Shown: positions 19,354 to 25,283 of the stretch, one piece after another
How positions within the stretch are numbered: position 1 is the first letter of the stretch
Layout: each line of letters opens with the position of its first letter
IMG/VR virus record: IMGVR_UViG_3300013132_000236
Location: 1 to 25,283 of that record
DNA from: a virus
Reading direction: 5' to 3' (one strand)
Length of the DNA stretch: 25,283 nt
The notes under the pieces: generated by a model
Told to the model about the DNA's origin: nothing
Databases searched by the model: none
What the model saw: only the letters and a program-made list of their open reading frames with translations
Translations under genes and position numbers: made by a program

Positions 19354-21267
19354 TTATAAATCAACATACAAATAACCATTTGGATTTGTGGAATCTATAC
19401 TGTTGGATATCACAATTTTACCCTTATCATCATATTTGGTTTGTGTTCTTGCATCTCTCATAATTCTCTCCATTTCTGCCGCGGTAATACCTTTATTATT
19501 GGGGTCAGTATTTGTATTGTTTTGATTAGTTTGTTGGTTATTGTTAACATTTGCGGGTTGTTGTGGTGTTGGGTTTGTTTTTGTCGAATTTTCTTGAACT
19601 TTTGTGTTTAATTCCTTTCTTCTACTTTCAATTTCTGCATTTATATCGGTGTTACTTCTATCACCTTTGATATAATTTTTTAACATGTCATCAGCCTGCT
19701 TAACATATTTGTCCATGTCAGCACCCATACTTCTATAAGTGTTTGCAAACTCAACTTTTAACATTGCGGCAATTTCTGAAACTGTTAATGCTAATTTTTG
19801 TGTTTCTGTAAATTGTTCTAACGCAATATCTTTTGGGTCCATTTTTTCAAATGCTTTTTGATTTTCTAAAATTGCATTTGCAGTAGTTTGATTTAAATCT
19901 TCTAATGCAATTGTTTGACCTAATCGTTCTTGTAAAATTGTTGGTACCTCAATAACCATTTTTCCATCTTTACCCATTCTGGCTAAGTTTGTTAAAAACT
20001 CTATTTGTTTTTCATCAGCCGAAACACCTGAAGCAATTATATCTTGTGCTGCAGAGGTTCTTTCCGCCGCAGCAATTGCCATTTGTGATAAGTCTTGATA
20101 ACTCATCCCGAGTTCTTCTGCCATGGCTCTTGCTCTTCTTAAGTTAACACCCGATATTTCAAATTTTCCTTGTTCTGAATTATATGTTGCTAAAGATTCT
20201 GCCGCCCCAATTAACGCATCTTGTAATCCTTCCACGTTATTTGTTGCCATATACATCATTTGGAATGGGTCACCTAATGAACCAATTGCTCCACCTAATA
20301 CTTGTAGATTGGCAGCCAAATCTATTGCTTTCTCAGGTGACATTACTTTTTCTGCAATGTCAAATACATTTTGCATGTTCATTCTAAATTCAACAGATTT
20401 TTGTACCATTCTATTTAATCCCTGAGCACCATTTTCAAAACCATACTGATTTATTTTTCCAATATTTTTTTGAAACTCTTCTGTTGTTTTTCTAATATTT
20501 AAACCTAATACTAATGAAGATTTACCACCAGCGTTAATATTTTCTAATGTTTTTTCAGCTCCAATACCCGTAAGTTCAAAACTTCTTAATATTGGGGCCA
20601 TTTCTTTCATGTCACCTACGAATGCTCTCGATGTTACTGCCATGTTTTCCATAACAGATTCATTCATCGTGAAAAATCTTCCCGTTTCTTTAGTTGCAGA
20701 TATTGCGGTATCAGCTAATTCATCAAATGAATATCCCATACCTTGAACACCGTCATATGCATTTACAATACTATCTCTATACCCTCTTGATAATTCTTTT
20801 CCAATACCAATTTGACTATTTAACTTATTTCTTAATTCAACTTCTTTATTTACGATGTCTACCATACCTTCATAAAGATTTGATAATCCAGTTGAAAAAA
20901 GACCCTTTAACCCATCTTTTAATGATTGACTACCAAATAACGCCTTACCTATTGATACAGCGGCGTCAGCAATTTTGTCGGCACCAATTAATTCAGTTGC
21001 CGCCTCCGCACTTATCATTCCGTATCCTGTTGTAAATCCTTGTGCAGATACCGCTTTAGAAATCATACCTTTTCCACTACTATTATCATAAGATCCCGGT
21101 TTATGATAACGAGATAAAAATTGTTGACTTTCACTTTGTGTTACTGAATAATTACCAGAAATATTATTATTTCTATTGTACATATTCATAGCATCTATAT
21201 ATGCTTTAGAATCTGCGTCAGCACTTCCAAATTTACCAATAAAATCACCTATTAACGGTTTGTTCAT
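19354..21267 (-). CDS. 29: Tail tape measure protein
   Basis: 637 residues, mainly helical, with alternating Ala/Gly-rich and amphipathic stretches (about 95-530) and a low-complexity Asn/Gln/Thr/Pro region at about 556-590 before a short C-terminal segment. Position after tube and assembly-chaperone genes and before the baseplate genes is the usual place of the tape measure. T4 gp29 has 590 residues, so by the known proportionality between tape measure and tail length a tail similar to or slightly longer than T4's would be expected. I cannot see diagnostic catalytic motifs such as a muralytic domain. The ATG is 11 bases after the stop of the frame extension described at 21279-21440. Confidence 0.75.
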   Translation of the reverse strand: MNKPLIGDFIGKFGSADADSKAYIDAMNMYNRNNNISGNYSVTQSESQQFLSRYHKPGSYDNSSGKGMISKAVSAQGFTTGYGMISAEAATELIGADKIADAAVSIGKALFGSQSLKDGLKGLFSTGLSNLYEGMVDIVNKEVELRNKLNSQIGIGKELSRGYRDSIVNAYDGVQGMGYSFDELADTAISATKETGRFFTMNESVMENMAVTSRAFVGDMKEMAPILRSFELTGIGAEKTLENINAGGKSSLVLGLNIRKTTEEFQKNIGKINQYGFENGAQGLNRMVQKSVEFRMNMQNVFDIAEKVMSPEKAIDLAANLQVLGGAIGSLGDPFQMMYMATNNVEGLQDALIGAAESLATYNSEQGKFEISGVNLRRARAMAEELGMSYQDLSQMAIAAAERTSAAQDIIASGVSADEKQIEFLTNLARMGKDGKMVIEVPTILQERLGQTIALEDLNQTTANAILENQKAFEKMDPKDIALEQFTETQKLALTVSEIAAMLKVEFANTYRSMGADMDKYVKQADDMLKNYIKGDRSNTDINAEIESRRKELNTKVQENSTKTNPTPQQPANVNNNQQTNQNNTNTDPNNKGITAAEMERIMRDARTQTKYDDKGKIVISNSIDSTNPNGYLYVDL

Positions 21268-21278
21268 ATCAATAAATA

Positions 21279-21440
21279 CTATTTGGTATTATTTTCCAAT
21301 TCAATCAAATAACTAATATAATATCGTCTGATATAGACAGGCATAAGAAGGATATCTCGATATGAGAACCCTCTTTTAACTAAAAATAAAATTTCGTCTA
21401 ATTGACCTTTACTATAATCCGTAGAAAGGGCGAAAAAATT
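21279..21440 (-). CDS. Frameshift extension of the tail assembly chaperone
   Basis: An open frame lies +1 (equivalently -2) relative to the preceding gene, from just after an in-frame TAG at 21443-21441 to TAG at 21281-21279. After a shift at the T6 run it adds 50 residues, including the segment FSYRDILLMPVYIRRYYI. The composition and the 'M..Y.RRYYI..L' pattern look like real protein and resemble the C-terminal parts of frameshifted tail chaperones. No ATG or GTG opens the frame; the only ATG would leave 21 residues. The frame fills the otherwise unexplained gap up to the tape measure start. A +1 shift would give a fusion of 293 residues, a -2 shift 294. It is an inference from sequence only. 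Confidence 0.65.
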   Translation of the reverse strand, partial: NFFALSTDYSKGQLDEILFLVKRGFSYRDILLMPVYIRRYYISYLIELENNTK

Positions 21441-22161
21441 CTACCCCGAATCCAATTTCAACTTGGATTGTGTCTCCTGACGGGGTTGTTACTGTTTTTT
21501 TAAGATCTAATGATGGTTTATTTTCTTTAACAAATTTTCTGAAATCTTGTGAATCCTTGATTGGTAGATTTTGAACAAAATTATGTATGTTCATCATTTC
21601 TCTGTTGCCAGCAACAGATTTAATCATCATTTCTAATTCTTTTGTTACAAGTGGTGCAACCCCATTACCATTCCAACTTTTTTCTATTTCGTCAAGTTCT
21701 CTTTGTTGTTTTTTAGTTAAAAACTTAAAAGTAACTTCTACTTTAGATTTTTCCATAAAGTATTTGAATTCACCATTTTCATTTGGTGTTAATCCGAAAT
21801 CTTTAAACTTAACTTCACTTAAATCAACCTTCGCGGTAAATGCTTCGCTTGTTTTTGGGTCGGTTACATAAACGTTGAACTCAGGTCCGAACGCGGTGTT
21901 TCTTAAAAAGATTAAAACGGCTTGTCTATCTTCATCAACTAAATCGTCTGTGTTAAAATCTTTATCTAAAATTTTTCTTTTTAGTAATTCATCTACCACA
22001 GCATTACTTTGAATTAGGTTTTGTGCCGATAGTATATTTTCATCAGCAGCGGTTAAGTATGCAACTCTTAAAGATTTTTTTTGTATTGTATAATGAATAC
22101 CTCTACTTGGTAATTCTACAACATCATATGCAATTGTTGGGTCTACTACAAATTGTTCCAT
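21412..22161 (-). CDS. Tail/baseplate assembly protein, gp26/gp51-type (tail assembly chaperone)
   Basis: 249 residues. The N-terminal pattern (VVELPSRGIHYTI, then LTAADENIL and a DELLKRKIL helix, followed by DEDRQAVLIFLRNTAFG) is like the T4 gp26/gp51 baseplate-assembly family, whose members are 208-249 residues long. In many phages the protein coded between tube and tape measure genes is the tail assembly chaperone that coats the tape measure during assembly. The zero frame ends VEFFRPFYGL and a TAG at 21414-21412; ten codons earlier a T6 run could shift the ribosome into the next frame (see 21279-21440). The gene begins about 50 bases beyond the terminator at 22213-22235, so it probably has its own promoter or depends on readthrough. 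Confidence 0.7.
   Translation of the reverse strand: MEQFVVDPTIAYDVVELPSRGIHYTIQKKSLRVAYLTAADENILSAQNLIQSNAVVDELLKRKILDKDFNTDDLVDEDRQAVLIFLRNTAFGPEFNVYVTDPKTSEAFTAKVDLSEVKFKDFGLTPNENGEFKYFMEKSKVEVTFKFLTKKQQRELDEIEKSWNGNGVAPLVTKELEMMIKSVAGNREMMNIHNFVQNLPIKDSQDFRKFVKENKPSLDLKKTVTTPSGDTIQVEIGFGVEFFRPFYGL
21430..21438 (-). promoter_or_regulatory. Candidate ribosomal frameshift site TTTTTTCGC
   Basis: In the zero frame this reads TTT TTT CGC. A +1 move of the Phe tRNA from TTT to TTC, or a -2 move within the T run, both give perfect re-pairing and enter the extension frame. CGC arginine looks uncommon in this A/T-rich coding sequence, which could slow the A site; I did not count codons. Confidence 0.5.
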
Positions 22162-22212
22162 AGAATAAAATATATTAAATAACTATCTTAATGTAAAGTT
22201 TTAAAATAAAAA

Positions 22213-22235
22213 AAGGTATCCTTTTGAGATACCTT
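22213..22235 (-). terminator. Intrinsic terminator after the tail tube gene
   Basis: AAGGTATC (22213-22220) and GATACCTT (22228-22235) form a perfect 8-bp stem with a seven-base loop. On the minus strand it is followed by a T-rich run (complement of the A-run at 22203-22212). It lies 21 bases after the tube gene stop. Confidence 0.85.
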
Positions 22236-22256
22236 ATTTTTGACAGATTTATTATT

Positions 22257-22745
22257 TTAGTAAACTTGGATACATCTATCCATTCTCAAAGAACAAACGA
22301 TAGTTGCAATTTCATCTCTTGAGTAATCTAAATCACCGAAGTTTAAATCGGTAATAAATGTACCTTGTAGAATCCACTTTTCAACCACAACACCTGTTGG
22401 GTCTAACATTTCTAATTCGATATCTTTTTTATATCCAGCAGCATAACCCATACGACCTGTTACTGATTCTGCATGTAAACGGAACCATTCCATAAGTGCT
22501 TGAGAAGCAGATGGACCAATTGGGTCTTTAAAGGTTACTCTCATTTCCTGCCATTCAAATCTTCCTGCTACATATGTCGATGTATTCAAGAAGGGAATAG
22601 CCACAGAATTGATTTTAGCACTTGGTCTAGCCGCTGATGTTACATACCATTCATTGATACCCAAAGATGATGGGAATCTAACAATGAATCGGTTTTGTCT
22701 TTTCGGTTCATAAGGAACCGGCATTTTCATTAATAAATCTGCCAT
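22257..22745 (-). CDS. 19: Major tail tube protein, gp19-like
   Basis: 162 residues, almost the same as T4 gp19 (163). It would form the inner tube through which DNA passes, stacked in rings inside the sheath. Recognisable stretches are RQNRFIVRFPSSLGINEWYV at 16-35, the WQEMRVTFKDP strand, ALMEWFRLHAESVTG, and the C-terminal DLNFGDLDYSRDEIATIVCS strand pair typical of tube proteins. It sits after the sheath gene as in T4, and terminators on both sides make it a separate transcription unit, suitable for high, independent expression. Confidence 0.92.
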   Translation of the reverse strand: MADLLMKMPVPYEPKRQNRFIVRFPSSLGINEWYVTSAARPSAKINSVAIPFLNTSTYVAGRFEWQEMRVTFKDPIGPSASQALMEWFRLHAESVTGRMGYAAGYKKDIELEMLDPTGVVVEKWILQGTFITDLNFGDLDYSRDEIATIVCSLRMDRCIQVY

Positions 22746-22932
22746 TTTGTATTTGTTAAGTTTTTAGTTATTCTTTATTCCTATAAATATATTCAAATCA
22801 AGAAATATTTTTTTTTAACTATAATTGATTCAATACTTGATTTTATCAAAAATTTTAATTAGTTTTTTACTAGTCCCAGTATCCAGTTCTAGAATATTTC
22901 TTAACTTATTAATAAATACTAGAATATCTGGT

Positions 22933-22946
22933 TCCAGTATACTGGA
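22933..22946. repeat. 14-bp perfect palindrome TCCAGTATACTGGA
   Basis: A perfect inverted repeat without loop, of the form of an operator for a dimeric regulator. It is in the tube gene's upstream region. A CCAGTAT half also occurs at 22876-22882. Confidence 0.55.
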
Positions 22947-22978
22947 TTGTATATAAAAGTATAATTATTATAAAAAAT

Positions 22979-22994
22979 GGTTCCGCGTGGAACA
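22979..22994 (-). promoter_or_regulatory. parS-like 16-mer
   Basis: The minus strand reads TGTTCCACGCGGAACC, which differs at one position from the Pseudomonas-type parS site TGTTCCACGTGGAACC. Directly upstream on the same strand there is another TGTTCCACA (23003-22995). The element could instead be a hairpin (GTTCC/GGAAC, four-base loop) or a site for a phage regulator; no parB gene is visible. Confidence 0.35.
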
Positions 22995-23004
22995 TGTGGA
23001 ACAA

Positions 23005-23031
23005 AAAAGGGAATCCAATGGACTCCCTTTT
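23005..23031 (-). terminator. Intrinsic terminator after the tail sheath gene
   Basis: AAAAGGGAATCC (23005-23016) pairs with GGACTCCCTTTT (23020-23031) over 12 positions with one mismatch and a three-base loop. The minus-strand side continues in T residues. It starts 19 bases after the sheath stop. Confidence 0.85.
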
Positions 23032-23050
23032 CATTTTTATATACTTTACT

Positions 23051-25283
23051 TTAGATATTATCGAAAGACGCACCTGTAGGTGTAATAACAAACTCAACAT
23101 CAATAAATTCAAGAGAACGAGTAGGTTTGATATAAATTTTACCTCTAAGTGTGTTAGCATCAATATCCTCTGGATCATTTGATACTGTTACACGGAAGTC
23201 AAATAAACCTCTCTCTTTCTTAATTGATTCAAGAATAGGATTTACTAATCTCAAAAACTCATTTCTTACTTGTTCGTCATTTTGTTCAAATAACAATCTA
23301 ATTGCAACCGCTGAAATTAACTTTCTAGCTCTTAATAATAATCTTCTTACGTTGATTCTATCAAGTGCAGATTCTCTAACCTGTAGGGTTTTATTACCCC
23401 AAATAATTGTACCAGTGTCTGAGAATGTTGCAATTGGGTTAATTCTGTTCTTATAAAGGTCATCTCTTTCATCAAGAGTAAGTTTTTTGTATGCTTTAAT
23501 CGCGTTTATTAAACCTCTTGAATAACCCGCTACAGCGAACCAAGGATATGAAACGTTATCGGTCAATGCGATATTCTTTAAAACTTCCCCTGTTGGTGGA
23601 ATATACAACTGAGTTGCGTTGTCCCCATCTCTTACTTGAATCCAAGGCCAGTATGTTGCTGAGTAGTTACTATCAATTGAAACTGAATCCAAATTGTCAA
23701 TAACCTCTTCTGCGGTTGAAACGTTAGGTGAGTTCATCACATAAAGTGAATCCGCTCTATCATTTTCAATCATGTCGATTGCCTGAGTAACCAATGAACT
23801 GTGGTCGAGGAAGTTAATACCTGGAGTTGCAAATACGTTAATATCAACCGCTTCAGGATTTGCAAATGTTTCCACACCTTGTAAGTAAGCATAATAATCA
23901 GAGTTACCAACACTTGAACTAAATACACCTCCATTGGTTGTATGTCCACTTACATATACATTTTTACCGAAAATGAACGCGTCTCCGTTAGTTCTTACAT
24001 TTCTGTAGATATCCCAACCATCACAACCACCAAACACCGCGAAAGTAAACTTACGGAAAGAAACGTTTTCCAATTTATCTTTACTTAACCCTTCTAAATC
24101 ATATGGTGTACACTGAAATGTTACTCCTGTTATAGAAGATGCGTTTGTTGATAAGTGGAAACCAAAAGTTTCTGTTGACGCTCCTAATCCTTTATATTTC
24201 AATAAGTCTCTATCAAAACCAACTTGAGATGATAGACCCAAGGAAACCTTTCTTACTTTGTCACCATTTGATAGAACAGGTGTACCGTCTACTTCATATG
24301 ATATTACATCGCCAGCGTCAAAATATTCAGTTTTGTATAAAACACTACCTAATTTATTTCCACCACCGAATGTTCCGTTATTTTTAAACCCTTTGAAACC
24401 AGCAGGAAATGCATCGGTTGGGTGATTATCCGCCATAGATAACATAATGTATCTTGAACGTAATTCATATTCACCATCTGATGTACCAACTTTTCTAGCA
24501 ACATAACCTGGTAAATCAGGATTCATATTACATCTTGTAAATTTCTCTAATACAACGATATTATCGTCAGAATCATTGAAATCTCTAACTATTAAATCAA
24601 AATCACCACTATCTAAATCGATGTTTTGAACCGTTATTTTAACTTGGAAGTTTGCCGCTTCACCATCTGAAATTGTGATAACTTCAAATAAATCTGCAAC
24701 TTCACCACCACGAACTTCAGAAACAACCATAGGAGAAATTGTGGTATCCCACTGACCTAAGAAGTTGTTACCATCTGTTTCTACCACAACCGTTGTACTC
24801 AAACCTCTAATTAAACCCTTATCAAAAGCAGATTTTAAAAGAGACGAATAAACTTCGTGTACATATAAAGGAAAATCCGATTTTACTTTATCAAAAACTT
24901 CATGACCTAAAACTTTGGTGATGAATTTTGTTGATGTTGTGTCTAATGAACAAGTGAATGATTTTGCACCACTTGTAGAACCTGTTACATTTAAAGTAAA
25001 CTCACCTAAAGGATTACCTGTGATATCACCCGAAATACTTACAGTTGAACCCGTAACTTCTAAATTTAATGCTTGACCACTATAAGAACCTCTTGATCTA
25101 AGAGCAGCCACCACAACGTCATGATAATCTGAATTCAAGGACGCGTTGTATTCATATCTTGTAACATCAAAGTGGTCATCGTCCCAAACAAATAGGTATG
25201 AATATACATCTGTGATTGTAGCACCACTATTGAAAAATACGTTATACCATTCTTTCTGATGATTAGATGTTTCATTGTCTTGA
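23051..25283 (-). CDS. 18: Contractile tail sheath protein, gp18-like, 5' end outside the window
   Basis: The reading frame is open to the window edge, giving at least 743 residues, so the true start lies beyond 25283. T4 gp18 has 659 residues. A TTG at 25138 is not a start, because the coding frame continues without a stop upstream through 48 more codons (for example VYSYLFVWDDD). The C-terminal part is typical of sheath proteins: WGNKTLQVRES, INVRRLLLRARKLI, then AVAIRLLFEQND and, near the end, VNPILESIKKERGLFDFRV, followed by beta strands that close the sheath interlock. It contracts to push the tube through the cell envelope. A terminator follows the stop. Confidence 0.93.
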   Translation of the reverse strand, partial: QDNETSNHQKEWYNVFFNSGATITDVYSYLFVWDDDHFDVTRYEYNASLNSDYHDVVVAALRSRGSYSGQALNLEVTGSTVSISGDITGNPLGEFTLNVTGSTSGAKSFTCSLDTTSTKFITKVLGHEVFDKVKSDFPLYVHEVYSSLLKSAFDKGLIRGLSTTVVVETDGNNFLGQWDTTISPMVVSEVRGGEVADLFEVITISDGEAANFQVKITVQNIDLDSGDFDLIVRDFNDSDDNIVVLEKFTRCNMNPDLPGYVARKVGTSDGEYELRSRYIMLSMADNHPTDAFPAGFKGFKNNGTFGGGNKLGSVLYKTEYFDAGDVISYEVDGTPVLSNGDKVRKVSLGLSSQVGFDRDLLKYKGLGASTETFGFHLSTNASSITGVTFQCTPYDLEGLSKDKLENVSFRKFTFAVFGGCDGWDIYRNVRTNGDAFIFGKNVYVSGHTTNGGVFSSSVGNSDYYAYLQGVETFANPEAVDINVFATPGINFLDHSSLVTQAIDMIENDRADSLYVMNSPNVSTAEEVIDNLDSVSIDSNYSATYWPWIQVRDGDNATQLYIPPTGEVLKNIALTDNVSYPWFAVAGYSRGLINAIKAYKKLTLDERDDLYKNRINPIATFSDTGTIIWGNKTLQVRESALDRINVRRLLLRARKLISAVAIRLLFEQNDEQVRNEFLRLVNPILESIKKERGLFDFRVTVSNDPEDIDANTLRGKIYIKPTRSLEFIDVEFVITPTGASFDNI

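Follow-up and report, generated by a model that had tools for sequence, protein, structure and literature searches.

The stretch of viral DNA analysed here (the window) comprises 25,283 nucleotides (nt), positions 1 to 25,283 of the IMG/VR record IMGVR_UViG_3300013132_000236, and carries on its minus strand a gene of the T4 gp26 type. Very probably, a programmed +1 ribosomal frameshift in this gene allows it to encode both a short and a long T4-like tail assembly chaperone (TAC). The frame of the gene (0 frame) ends with a TAG, 144 nt before the ATG at 21267. A +1 slip near its end would make GCC (21431-21429) the next codon, and reading would continue for 50 codons to the TAG at 21281-21279, 11 nt short of that ATG. 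The last stop of the +1 frame upstream is the TAG at 21443-21441, just before the slip site; because it closes this frame, the change of frame can be located between it and the 0-frame stop. An earlier description made from the letters of the window alone (the original prediction) had given the 144-nt gap, the 50 open codons, the 11 bases to the ATG and the TTT TTT CGC at 21438-21430, all of which were reproduced, as was its statement that a -1 shift fails to reach the extension, the -1 frame meeting a stop about a dozen codons on. Its central claim, a programmed frameshift in a gp26/gp51-type protein encoded between the tail tube and a putative tape measure gene, is strongly supported by comparison with relatives.

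These relatives were taken from IMG/VR as the best 80 per scan, ranked by similarity. The first scan gave 56 loci, 55 of them with the whole gene; with a profile scan added, there were 134 loci (104 distinct sequences), and with two further scans, 292 loci (204 distinct sequences) outside the immuto group described below. Identical segments were counted once. The site finder required TTY TTT C near the end of the 0 frame, which all 292 loci satisfied. The peptide patterns of one scan included FGVEFFR, so that the conservation of those amino acids was partly selected there, with codon choice unaffected. L072 and L076 (same contigs as L047 and L050) and the early-ending contigs L083 and L109 were left out of the set of 104, and L083, L109, L170 and L258 were left out of the set of 204 for early contig ends. 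L056, with 30 residues only, and five loci with the 0-frame stop beyond the contig were also excluded.

Judged by its pattern of substitution, the +1-frame extension is real coding sequence. The +1 frame is open in all 204 distinct relatives, for 45-66 codons (median 50). Between nt +24 and +138, past the overlap, the ratio of non-synonymous to synonymous change (pN/pS) over 99 sequence pairs is 0.122 in the +1 frame versus 1.94 in frame 0 and 1.20 in the -1 frame. The third positions of the +1 codons vary most in the same interval (0.28 versus 0.10 and 0.04), and stops occur there in 0 of 204 sequences in the +1 frame, 202 in frame 0 and 204 in the -1 frame. Taken by itself, the open frame in this AT-rich spacer is only a mild rarity, as 1.4% of shuffled spacers are open for equally long. 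Chance can be ruled out for the extension frame because it is open in every relative and under purifying selection. A +1 opening of similar size following the sheath gene of the window (22909-23051, 142 nt past the stop at 23051) served as a negative control; only 22 of 229 relatives have it open for 120 nt or more, and it looks like a product of chance. The alignment of related phages, which the original prediction had proposed as a check, agrees with what it expected: a slip site of the T6-CGN kind and the downstream frame are conserved, with substitutions biased to synonymous ones in the +1 frame. Among the outcomes it had named as contrary, the second frame is broken in none of the 204 relatives, coding signal is present beyond 21412 and no start codon is conserved.

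The conservation of the slip site extends to the codons themselves. TTT CGN is found in frame at the slip in all 204 relatives (CGC 74, CGT 69, CGG 53, CGA 8), preceded by a further TTT in 201 and by TTC in 3; in the loci of the first scan plus the window, T6 followed by CGN was found in 56 of 56. Within the genes of the window, TTT CGN occurs in frame once in 8147 codons, at the slip site, and CGN codons account for 32 of 326 arginines (AGA 269, AGG 25, CGT 24, CGA 6, CGC 2, CGG 0). Among the 104 sequences, the slip phenylalanine F243 is TTT in 104 and F242 in 103, while five other conserved phenylalanine columns before the slip are TTT in 64-90%. F246, which lies inside the overlap and is constrained by both frames, is TTC in 103 of 104. 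The arginine after the slip is CGN in 104 of 104, and R87 is AGA in 92. The end of the short form also varies in a regular way. In the group of L098-L150, 34 of 104 sequences have RPFF-stop, at a distance of 5 codons from the slip TTT, and 69 have RPFYGL-stop, at a distance of 7 codons; the 0-frame tail residues are alike within each kind of ending, suggesting that the C-terminal tail of the short form may matter in its own right.

Two reports bear on this site, Firth et al. 2012 (PMC3498833) and Nibert et al. 2016 (PMC5052127). Excerpts of the former, as of the other cited papers drawn on here, describe an established +1 shift at UCC_UUU_CGU of influenza virus, and work cited there found that changing UUU_CGU to UUC_AGA abolished the shift and that CGU to CGG halved it (PMC3498833). 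The plant amalgaviruses use the +1 motif UUU_CGN with all four CGN codons represented (PMC5052127). A caution against assigning the CGN codon a stimulating role is that the influenza authors deem the part played by the A-site codon uncertain (PMC3498833). In the open-licence literature, judged by titles and abstracts, no UUU_CGN or UUU_CGU frameshift was found in phages; of the matches for UUU_CGU with bacteriophage, only the influenza paper holds UUU_CGU.

Upstream of the slip, a CCCC/GGGG stem is conserved, with covariation at one pair, as far as alignment of 177 distinct sequences can tell. Counted from the P-site codon, nt -50 to -46 (xCC-CCN, mostly Thr/Ala/Ser-Pro) lie opposite nt -13 to -9 (YGGGG in most), and standard pairs are formed at -50/-9 in 170 sequences, -49/-10 in 172, -48/-11 in 176, -47/-12 in 177 and -46/-13 in 146. 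Only -49/-10 and -46/-13 pair wobble with wobble positions and escape the constraint of the protein code. At -49/-10 the pairs are C-G in 154, A-T in 13, G-T in 3 and T-G in 2, with 5 unpaired, and T at -10 faces A or G in 16 of 16 cases. Among 26,344 wobble pairs of the gene, this pair (226-239) has the top normalised pairing excess, 0.857; raw excess puts it at rank 90 and mutual information at rank 19, and it comes first only after normalising by the possible excess. When -10 alone was simulated along a FastTree tree, none of the kept runs (0 of 206 and 0 of 216) attained 172 pairs. Moreover, compared with synonymous recodings, the fold of the upstream 51 nt is better, with a mean z of -2.25 (n=177) and -0.18 to -0.30 in three control windows. 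At the same place in the immuto group, the fold z is -1.57 versus -0.56 and 0.07 in controls; there, pairing of the 3' arm is commonest at -12 to -10, with other 5' arms. Codons 227-229 of the window (CCG TCA GGA, 21475-21483) show a bias of their own, Gly229 being GGA in 99 of 102 and Ser228 TCA in 87 of 104 sequences, far above the usage at other conserved columns. Only the Pro codon touches the proposed stem, and the GGA/TCA bias may reflect a small GUC/GAC hairpin in the fold of the window.

Several observations weigh against a stimulating hairpin. The remaining stem pairs are dictated by the encoded amino acids and are little informative, and the two sides of -49/-10 change just 9 and 8 times on the tree. 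In a test of independent pairs, -49/-10 changed in the same direction in 1.4-1.9 and in the opposite direction in 0.1 pairs on average, too few for significance. For -46/-13 the values were 5.5 versus 0.3 of 16 pairs (median p 0.06), and simulations reached its observed value in 13 of 256 and 96 of 294 runs, so that this pair is not clearly supported. The hairpin of the window alone is unremarkable, with a z of -0.97 versus dinucleotide shuffles. Additionally, 5 nt separate the stem from the E-site codon, more than the best spacing in eukaryotic work, in which the effect on -1 shifts was halved when spacing grew from 2 to 5 nt (PMC3639245). As for a stimulatory structure downstream, alifold over +3 to +75 and -6 to +60 gave only a 3-bp helix. 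A GUAGAA/UUCUAC hairpin around the slip, seen by eye, was rejected, being broken in relatives with GUUGAA.

A mechanism driven by the upstream hairpin is proposed because, in published systems, +1 shifts become more frequent when a hairpin refolds beside the E site. Such hairpins stimulate +1 and weaken -1 slips in yeast (PMC3639245), and upstream hairpins in cis, in an E. coli 70S system, stimulated +1 at CUUUGA without RF2 and likewise weakened -1 slips (PMC6321510). The G tract at -12 to -9 might instead act as an internal Shine-Dalgarno sequence, which is compatible with a +1 shift; this is the strongest of the alternatives and still an unlikely one. GGGG is present in 183 of 204 relatives, and its computed duplex with a typical 16S tail amounts to -8.1 kcal/mol versus -10.3 for a prfB-like site. 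However, a T replacing G at -10 faces A or G and remains paired in all 16 cases, which a duplex with rRNA would not require, and the spacing exceeds that of prfB.

The direction of the shift is most likely +1 and not -2, on the evidence of the sites found within and outside the window's group. Outside it, seventeen homologues were hand-picked from match lists of 8, 64, 9 and 1166 records and form a sample, not a census. Seven of these genomes have the extension in the +1 frame: Flavobacterium immuto (CTT TGG), Microcystis Mel-JY01 (TTT TGG), LR756508 (TTT CTA), Streptococcus phage GXN1 (TTC TTT CGT), Listeria LIS04 (TTT TTT AGT, in which the first UUU must be the slipping codon), Bacillus SP-15 (TTT TTT CAC) and Rhodothermus RM378 (TTT TTT TGG). 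A scan led by the immuto protein yielded an immuto group of 79 loci, 76 of them distinct. Their P-site codon is TTT in 58 and CTT in 18, their A-site codon TGG in 70, TAC in 3 and TTC in 3, and YUU_U is present in 76 of 76; the +1 frame is open 190-304 nt past the 0-frame stop in 79 of 79 loci, two being cut by the contig end. Similar sites, TTT TTT TGG in 7 of 7, are present in contigs of bacterial and archaeal metagenome-assembled genomes (MAGs). A MAG chromosome under the label candidate division WOR-3 (L397; CP070664.1, 2764961-2768758) also contains a gp26-like gene with a +1 extension, which is either a prophage or phage sequence joined by assembly.

A +1 shift fits these sites best because a move of two bases back would leave the P-site tRNA mismatched at CTT and at TTC-TTT. 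The original prediction had left +1 or -2 open, and the former agrees better with the relatives. A -2 frameshift on U6, in the style of Mu gpGT, would give VEFFF-ALST, a product one residue longer, and is improbable. In its favour, and as a point against a +1 shift, the U6 of 201 of 204 relatives equally permits perfect re-pairing of the P-site tRNA two bases back, and the near-invariant first UUU is not strictly required by a +1 slip of the second. Re-pairing two bases back in every member, as in Mu-type sites, is nevertheless not found: mismatches arise at UUC_UUU (UUC_UUU_CGN in 3 of 204 relatives, and GXN1) and at CUU_U (18 of 76 immuto-group sites). Immediately behind the P-site codon, C stands in 292 of 292 loci of the window's group and T in 79 of 79 of the immuto group (the site finder demanded this base, and none failed); +1 re-pairing requires it and -2 does not. 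An upstream hairpin, moreover, favours +1 and weakens backward slips (PMC6321510).

The other ten homologues carry the extension in the -1 frame: P-SSM2, Bellamy, KVP40, Atu_ph07, Desulfovibrio 7757, Rhizobium I1_9, Vibrio D531, Vibrio 207E48.1, Aeromonas phiA8-29 and LR756511. The classic T_TTT_TTC is present in the first five and T_TTT_TTG in Rhizobium I1_9, with other sites in the rest. In LR756511 (L065), a phage of 595 kb, the 0-frame protein continues beyond the point at which slipping is usual and acquires a basic tail (FFFPRRRRKTETVEE...); what resembles the extension is read in the -1 frame, with no clear site.

It is quite improbable that the second frame is a separate small gene begun in or near the overlap, either through coupled re-initiation, with the AYG of CUAYGG as start, or from a TTG or ATG farther upstream. 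Some in-frame ATG, GTG or TTG precedes the slip, within the 0-frame gene, in 171 of 204 relatives, extension codon 3 is ATG in 13, and the P-SSM2, Bellamy and Rhizobium homologues are annotated as a gp51 or hub-assembly gene of their own. Against this, the upstream candidates vary in kind and place, extension codon 3 is mostly ACG (85) or a TCN serine (89), and 33 of 204 relatives (24 of 104 in the smaller set), the window included, lack any ATG, GTG or TTG from the upstream stop up to extension codon 9 or beyond; the window's +1 frame has its first start-like codon, an ATG, at extension codon 29. A separate gene also leaves the invariant UUU_CGN and the hairpin unexplained, and T4 gp51 is the entire long form in one frame, with PF12322 over residues 1-201 of 249. 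Several hypothetical or gp51 genes annotated in public records, namely immuto35A_232 (L057 3854-3964), SP15_046 (L064 2821-2940), P-SSM2 gp51 (L067 3708-3881) and KVP40.0327 (L069 3822-3989), look like fusion halves mistaken for genes.

Transcriptional slippage on the T6, giving a mixed population of mRNA, is a very faint possibility: the run is nearly invariant in the window's group, but six T is short for such slippage, a +1 change would require the loss of one base, and the homologous sites TTTCTTTGG and TTCTTTCGT have no run of six. An assembly error or a decayed gene can practically be dismissed in spite of the homopolymer at the junction, since three IMG/VR contigs with three sample numbers (L001-L003, one possibly of the window's source) match the window letter for letter over -30 to +150 around the slip and all 204 relatives have the same frame relation, with a pN/pS of 0.12.

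The coordinates of the features are collected in Table 1. Of the layout named in the original prediction, the sheath and tube are confirmed by profile matches, while the name tape measure for the gene at 19354-21267 is based on position: that gene had no Pfam match and no convincing PHROG match. The immuto gene at the equivalent place is annotated as tail tape measure, and BLASTP between the two gives only an E-value (E) of 0.004 over about 105 residues. A long open reading frame (ORF) starts at most 40 nt past the extension in 155 of 204 relatives and 41-300 nt past it in 37, with none or a contig end in 12. No tRNA genes were found in the window, and an Rfam scan of 20800-22800 had no match up to E 1.

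Table 1. Features of the candidate frameshift locus and its neighbours in the window
Feature	Coordinates	Strand	Remarks
0-frame gene, T4 gp26-type, putative short tail assembly chaperone (TAC-N), 249 residues	21412..22161	-	PF12322, phrog_150
Slip site UUU_UUU_CGC	21430..21438	-	P-site UUU 21435-21433; A-site CGC 21432-21430; +1 re-pairing UUU to UUC
+1-frame extension (TAC-C), 50 codons plus stop, ALSTDYSK...LENNTK	21279..21431	-	Open and under purifying selection in relatives
Inferred frameshift product (TAC-NC), 293 residues, ...VEFF-ALSTDYSK...	21279..22161	-	Translation with TTTC as one step
Hairpin 5' arm CCCCG	21481..21485	-	nt -50 to -46 from P-site codon
Hairpin 3' arm CGGGG	21444..21448	-	nt -13 to -9
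Tail tube protein, upstream	22257..22745	-	phrog_4542, E 1.2e-25
Tail sheath, truncated by window end	23051..25282	-	phrog_23 'tail sheath', E 1.1e-54
Putative tape measure protein	19354..21267	-	Position only

The 0-frame protein matches PF12322 (T4_baseplate) with 35.2 bits (E 1.3e-8; curated cut-off 24.5) and phrog_150 'baseplate hub' with E 5.7e-11. Its AlphaFold2 model, for which 55 unchanged 0-frame proteins were the input, has a predicted local distance difference test score of 87.3 and matches models of the gp26 family in BFVD (SP-15, E 1.6e-15; Aeromonas phage 25 gp26, E 1.8e-5). Foldseek against the PDB gave no match at E 0.001, and the best of 17 rows in a sequence-profile search of the PDB was E 0.33. 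Among 984 PDB chains aligned with VIA-align 2, the HK97 tail assembly chaperone 2ob9 was the sole chain with Z of at least 2 (Z 4.8, root-mean-square deviation 5.5, 85 residues). This match is weak by the tool's own standard (Z under 8), and the structural link indicated by the model is suggestive but weak.

The kinship of the extension with T4 gp51 is indirect, as the profile comparisons have it. Three of the 6 tried +1-class extensions match phrog_634 'baseplate hub assembly catalyst' (E 4.2e-5, 1.3e-3 and 2.5e-3); those of the window, immuto and GXN1 have no match to it, and the Bellamy extension of the -1 class matches it with E 1e-28. By hhalign, the window-type extension family matches the cyanophage-type extensions with E 3.5e-4 (probability 37%), and these match gp51 with E 6.3e-5 (64%); directly, the extension family against the C-terminus of T4 gp51 is not significant (E 0.055, 1%). 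T4 genes 26 (208 residues) and 51 (249 residues) both match PF12322, and because the match covers only the first 201 residues of gp51, this protein can be read as a gp26-like domain plus about 48 residues. In 8 large contigs from the window's group, 116-251 kb in length and possibly incomplete, a single gp26-like gene each was found.

In the mechanism that we infer, including its +1 direction, the stimulation by hairpin and CGN codon, the ratio of products and the role in tail assembly, most ribosomes would stop at 21412 and release the short, gp26-like TAC-N. A fraction, with tRNA-Phe on the UUU in the P site and a rare CGN arginine codon waiting in the A site, would slip one base forward onto UUC, read GCC and continue through the extension to the predicted long TAC-NC, the presumed equivalent of T4 gp51. 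The CCCC/GGGG hairpin would re-close behind the ribosome and probably push the slip forward, taking the role of the internal Shine-Dalgarno duplex in E. coli prfB. As with lambda gpG and gpGT, a fixed ratio of the two forms would next serve to load the tail tube onto the tape measure.

Chaperone frameshifting is known; a +1 UUU_CGN site with a conserved upstream hairpin is, as far as the literature searches tell, new. It is possible, if somewhat short of an even chance, that a large phage clade uses a UUU_CGN +1 site of the eukaryotic-virus type, stimulated by an mRNA hairpin that refolds once the ribosome has passed and substitutes for an internal Shine-Dalgarno duplex, as a natural counterpart of in vitro constructs, and that the same homologous gene pair underwent a change in the sign of the shift from clade to clade (+1 in this one, -1 in cyanophages and in several phages of Proteobacteria), gene duplication replacing the shift in T4. 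With about two hundred variants aligned, the locus is a natural candidate, clear and testable, for +1 frameshifting driven by an upstream hairpin on bacterial ribosomes. The T4-like chaperones gain a +1 branch through it, and it suggests that a single ancient gene pair arrived at the same two products by three routes, +1, -1 and duplication. For annotators, gp51-type ORFs behind gp26-type genes are likely to be fusion halves and not genes.

T4 genes 26 and 51 are reportedly named in the abstract of the 2022 study by Vladimirov and colleagues, and frameshifting is said there to be conserved in several T4-like groups. The two PF12322 genes of T4 agree with this assignment. In that study (Virology 566:9-15), the chaperone genes of T4-like phages were identified, some of these phages having one gene for the short and another for the long form (via PMC10885494, PMC12846349), and poly-T -1 signals are known for T4-like TAC-N genes (PMC12846349). 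The link between gp26/gp51 and the general chaperone scheme, which the original prediction expected from such a frameshift, had thus been drawn before (Vladimirov et al. 2022). The original prediction also erred in naming Listeria PSA as a +1 chaperone example; the documented +1 shifts of PSA are in its capsid and tail-shaft (tsh) genes (PMC5009743).

Compared with T4 itself, the protein belongs to the same PF12322 family, and T4 gp26 (...KEFFELL) ends, like the short form here, at the EFF motif at which other phages slip; T4 has two genes, whereas one gene and a frameshift are found here. T4 gp51 is needed for assembly and is absent from the particle (PMC3004832). The homologues of cyanophages, KVP40 and the Agrobacterium, Rhizobium, Desulfovibrio, Vibrio and Aeromonas phages share the gp26-type gene with an extension behind it, annotated as gp51 or hub assembly in P-SSM2, Bellamy and Rhizobium I1_9, but there the extension is in the -1 frame. 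For the Bacillus thuringiensis phage 0305phi8-36, short and long chaperone forms (gp143 and gp144) were proposed earlier; they arose by gene duplication as two genes without a frameshift (PMC2147016). Lambda gpG/gpGT, P2 and Mu have the same place before the tape measure and two forms through frameshifting (PMC5009743), although the shift is -1 or, in Mu, -2, and sequences and slip sites are different. Influenza A PA-X (UCC_UUU_CGU) and the plant amalgaviruses share the +1 tetramer UUU_C with CGN in the A site, in unrelated genes and on 80S ribosomes, and no such hairpin is mentioned in the excerpts (PMC3498833, PMC5052127). Finally, the immuto-group sites CUU_U or UUU_U resemble CUU_UGA of prfB (RF2), where an upstream duplex likewise helps the +1 slip; unlike prfB, a sense codon occupies the A site here, and an RNA hairpin would stand in for the duplex with rRNA.

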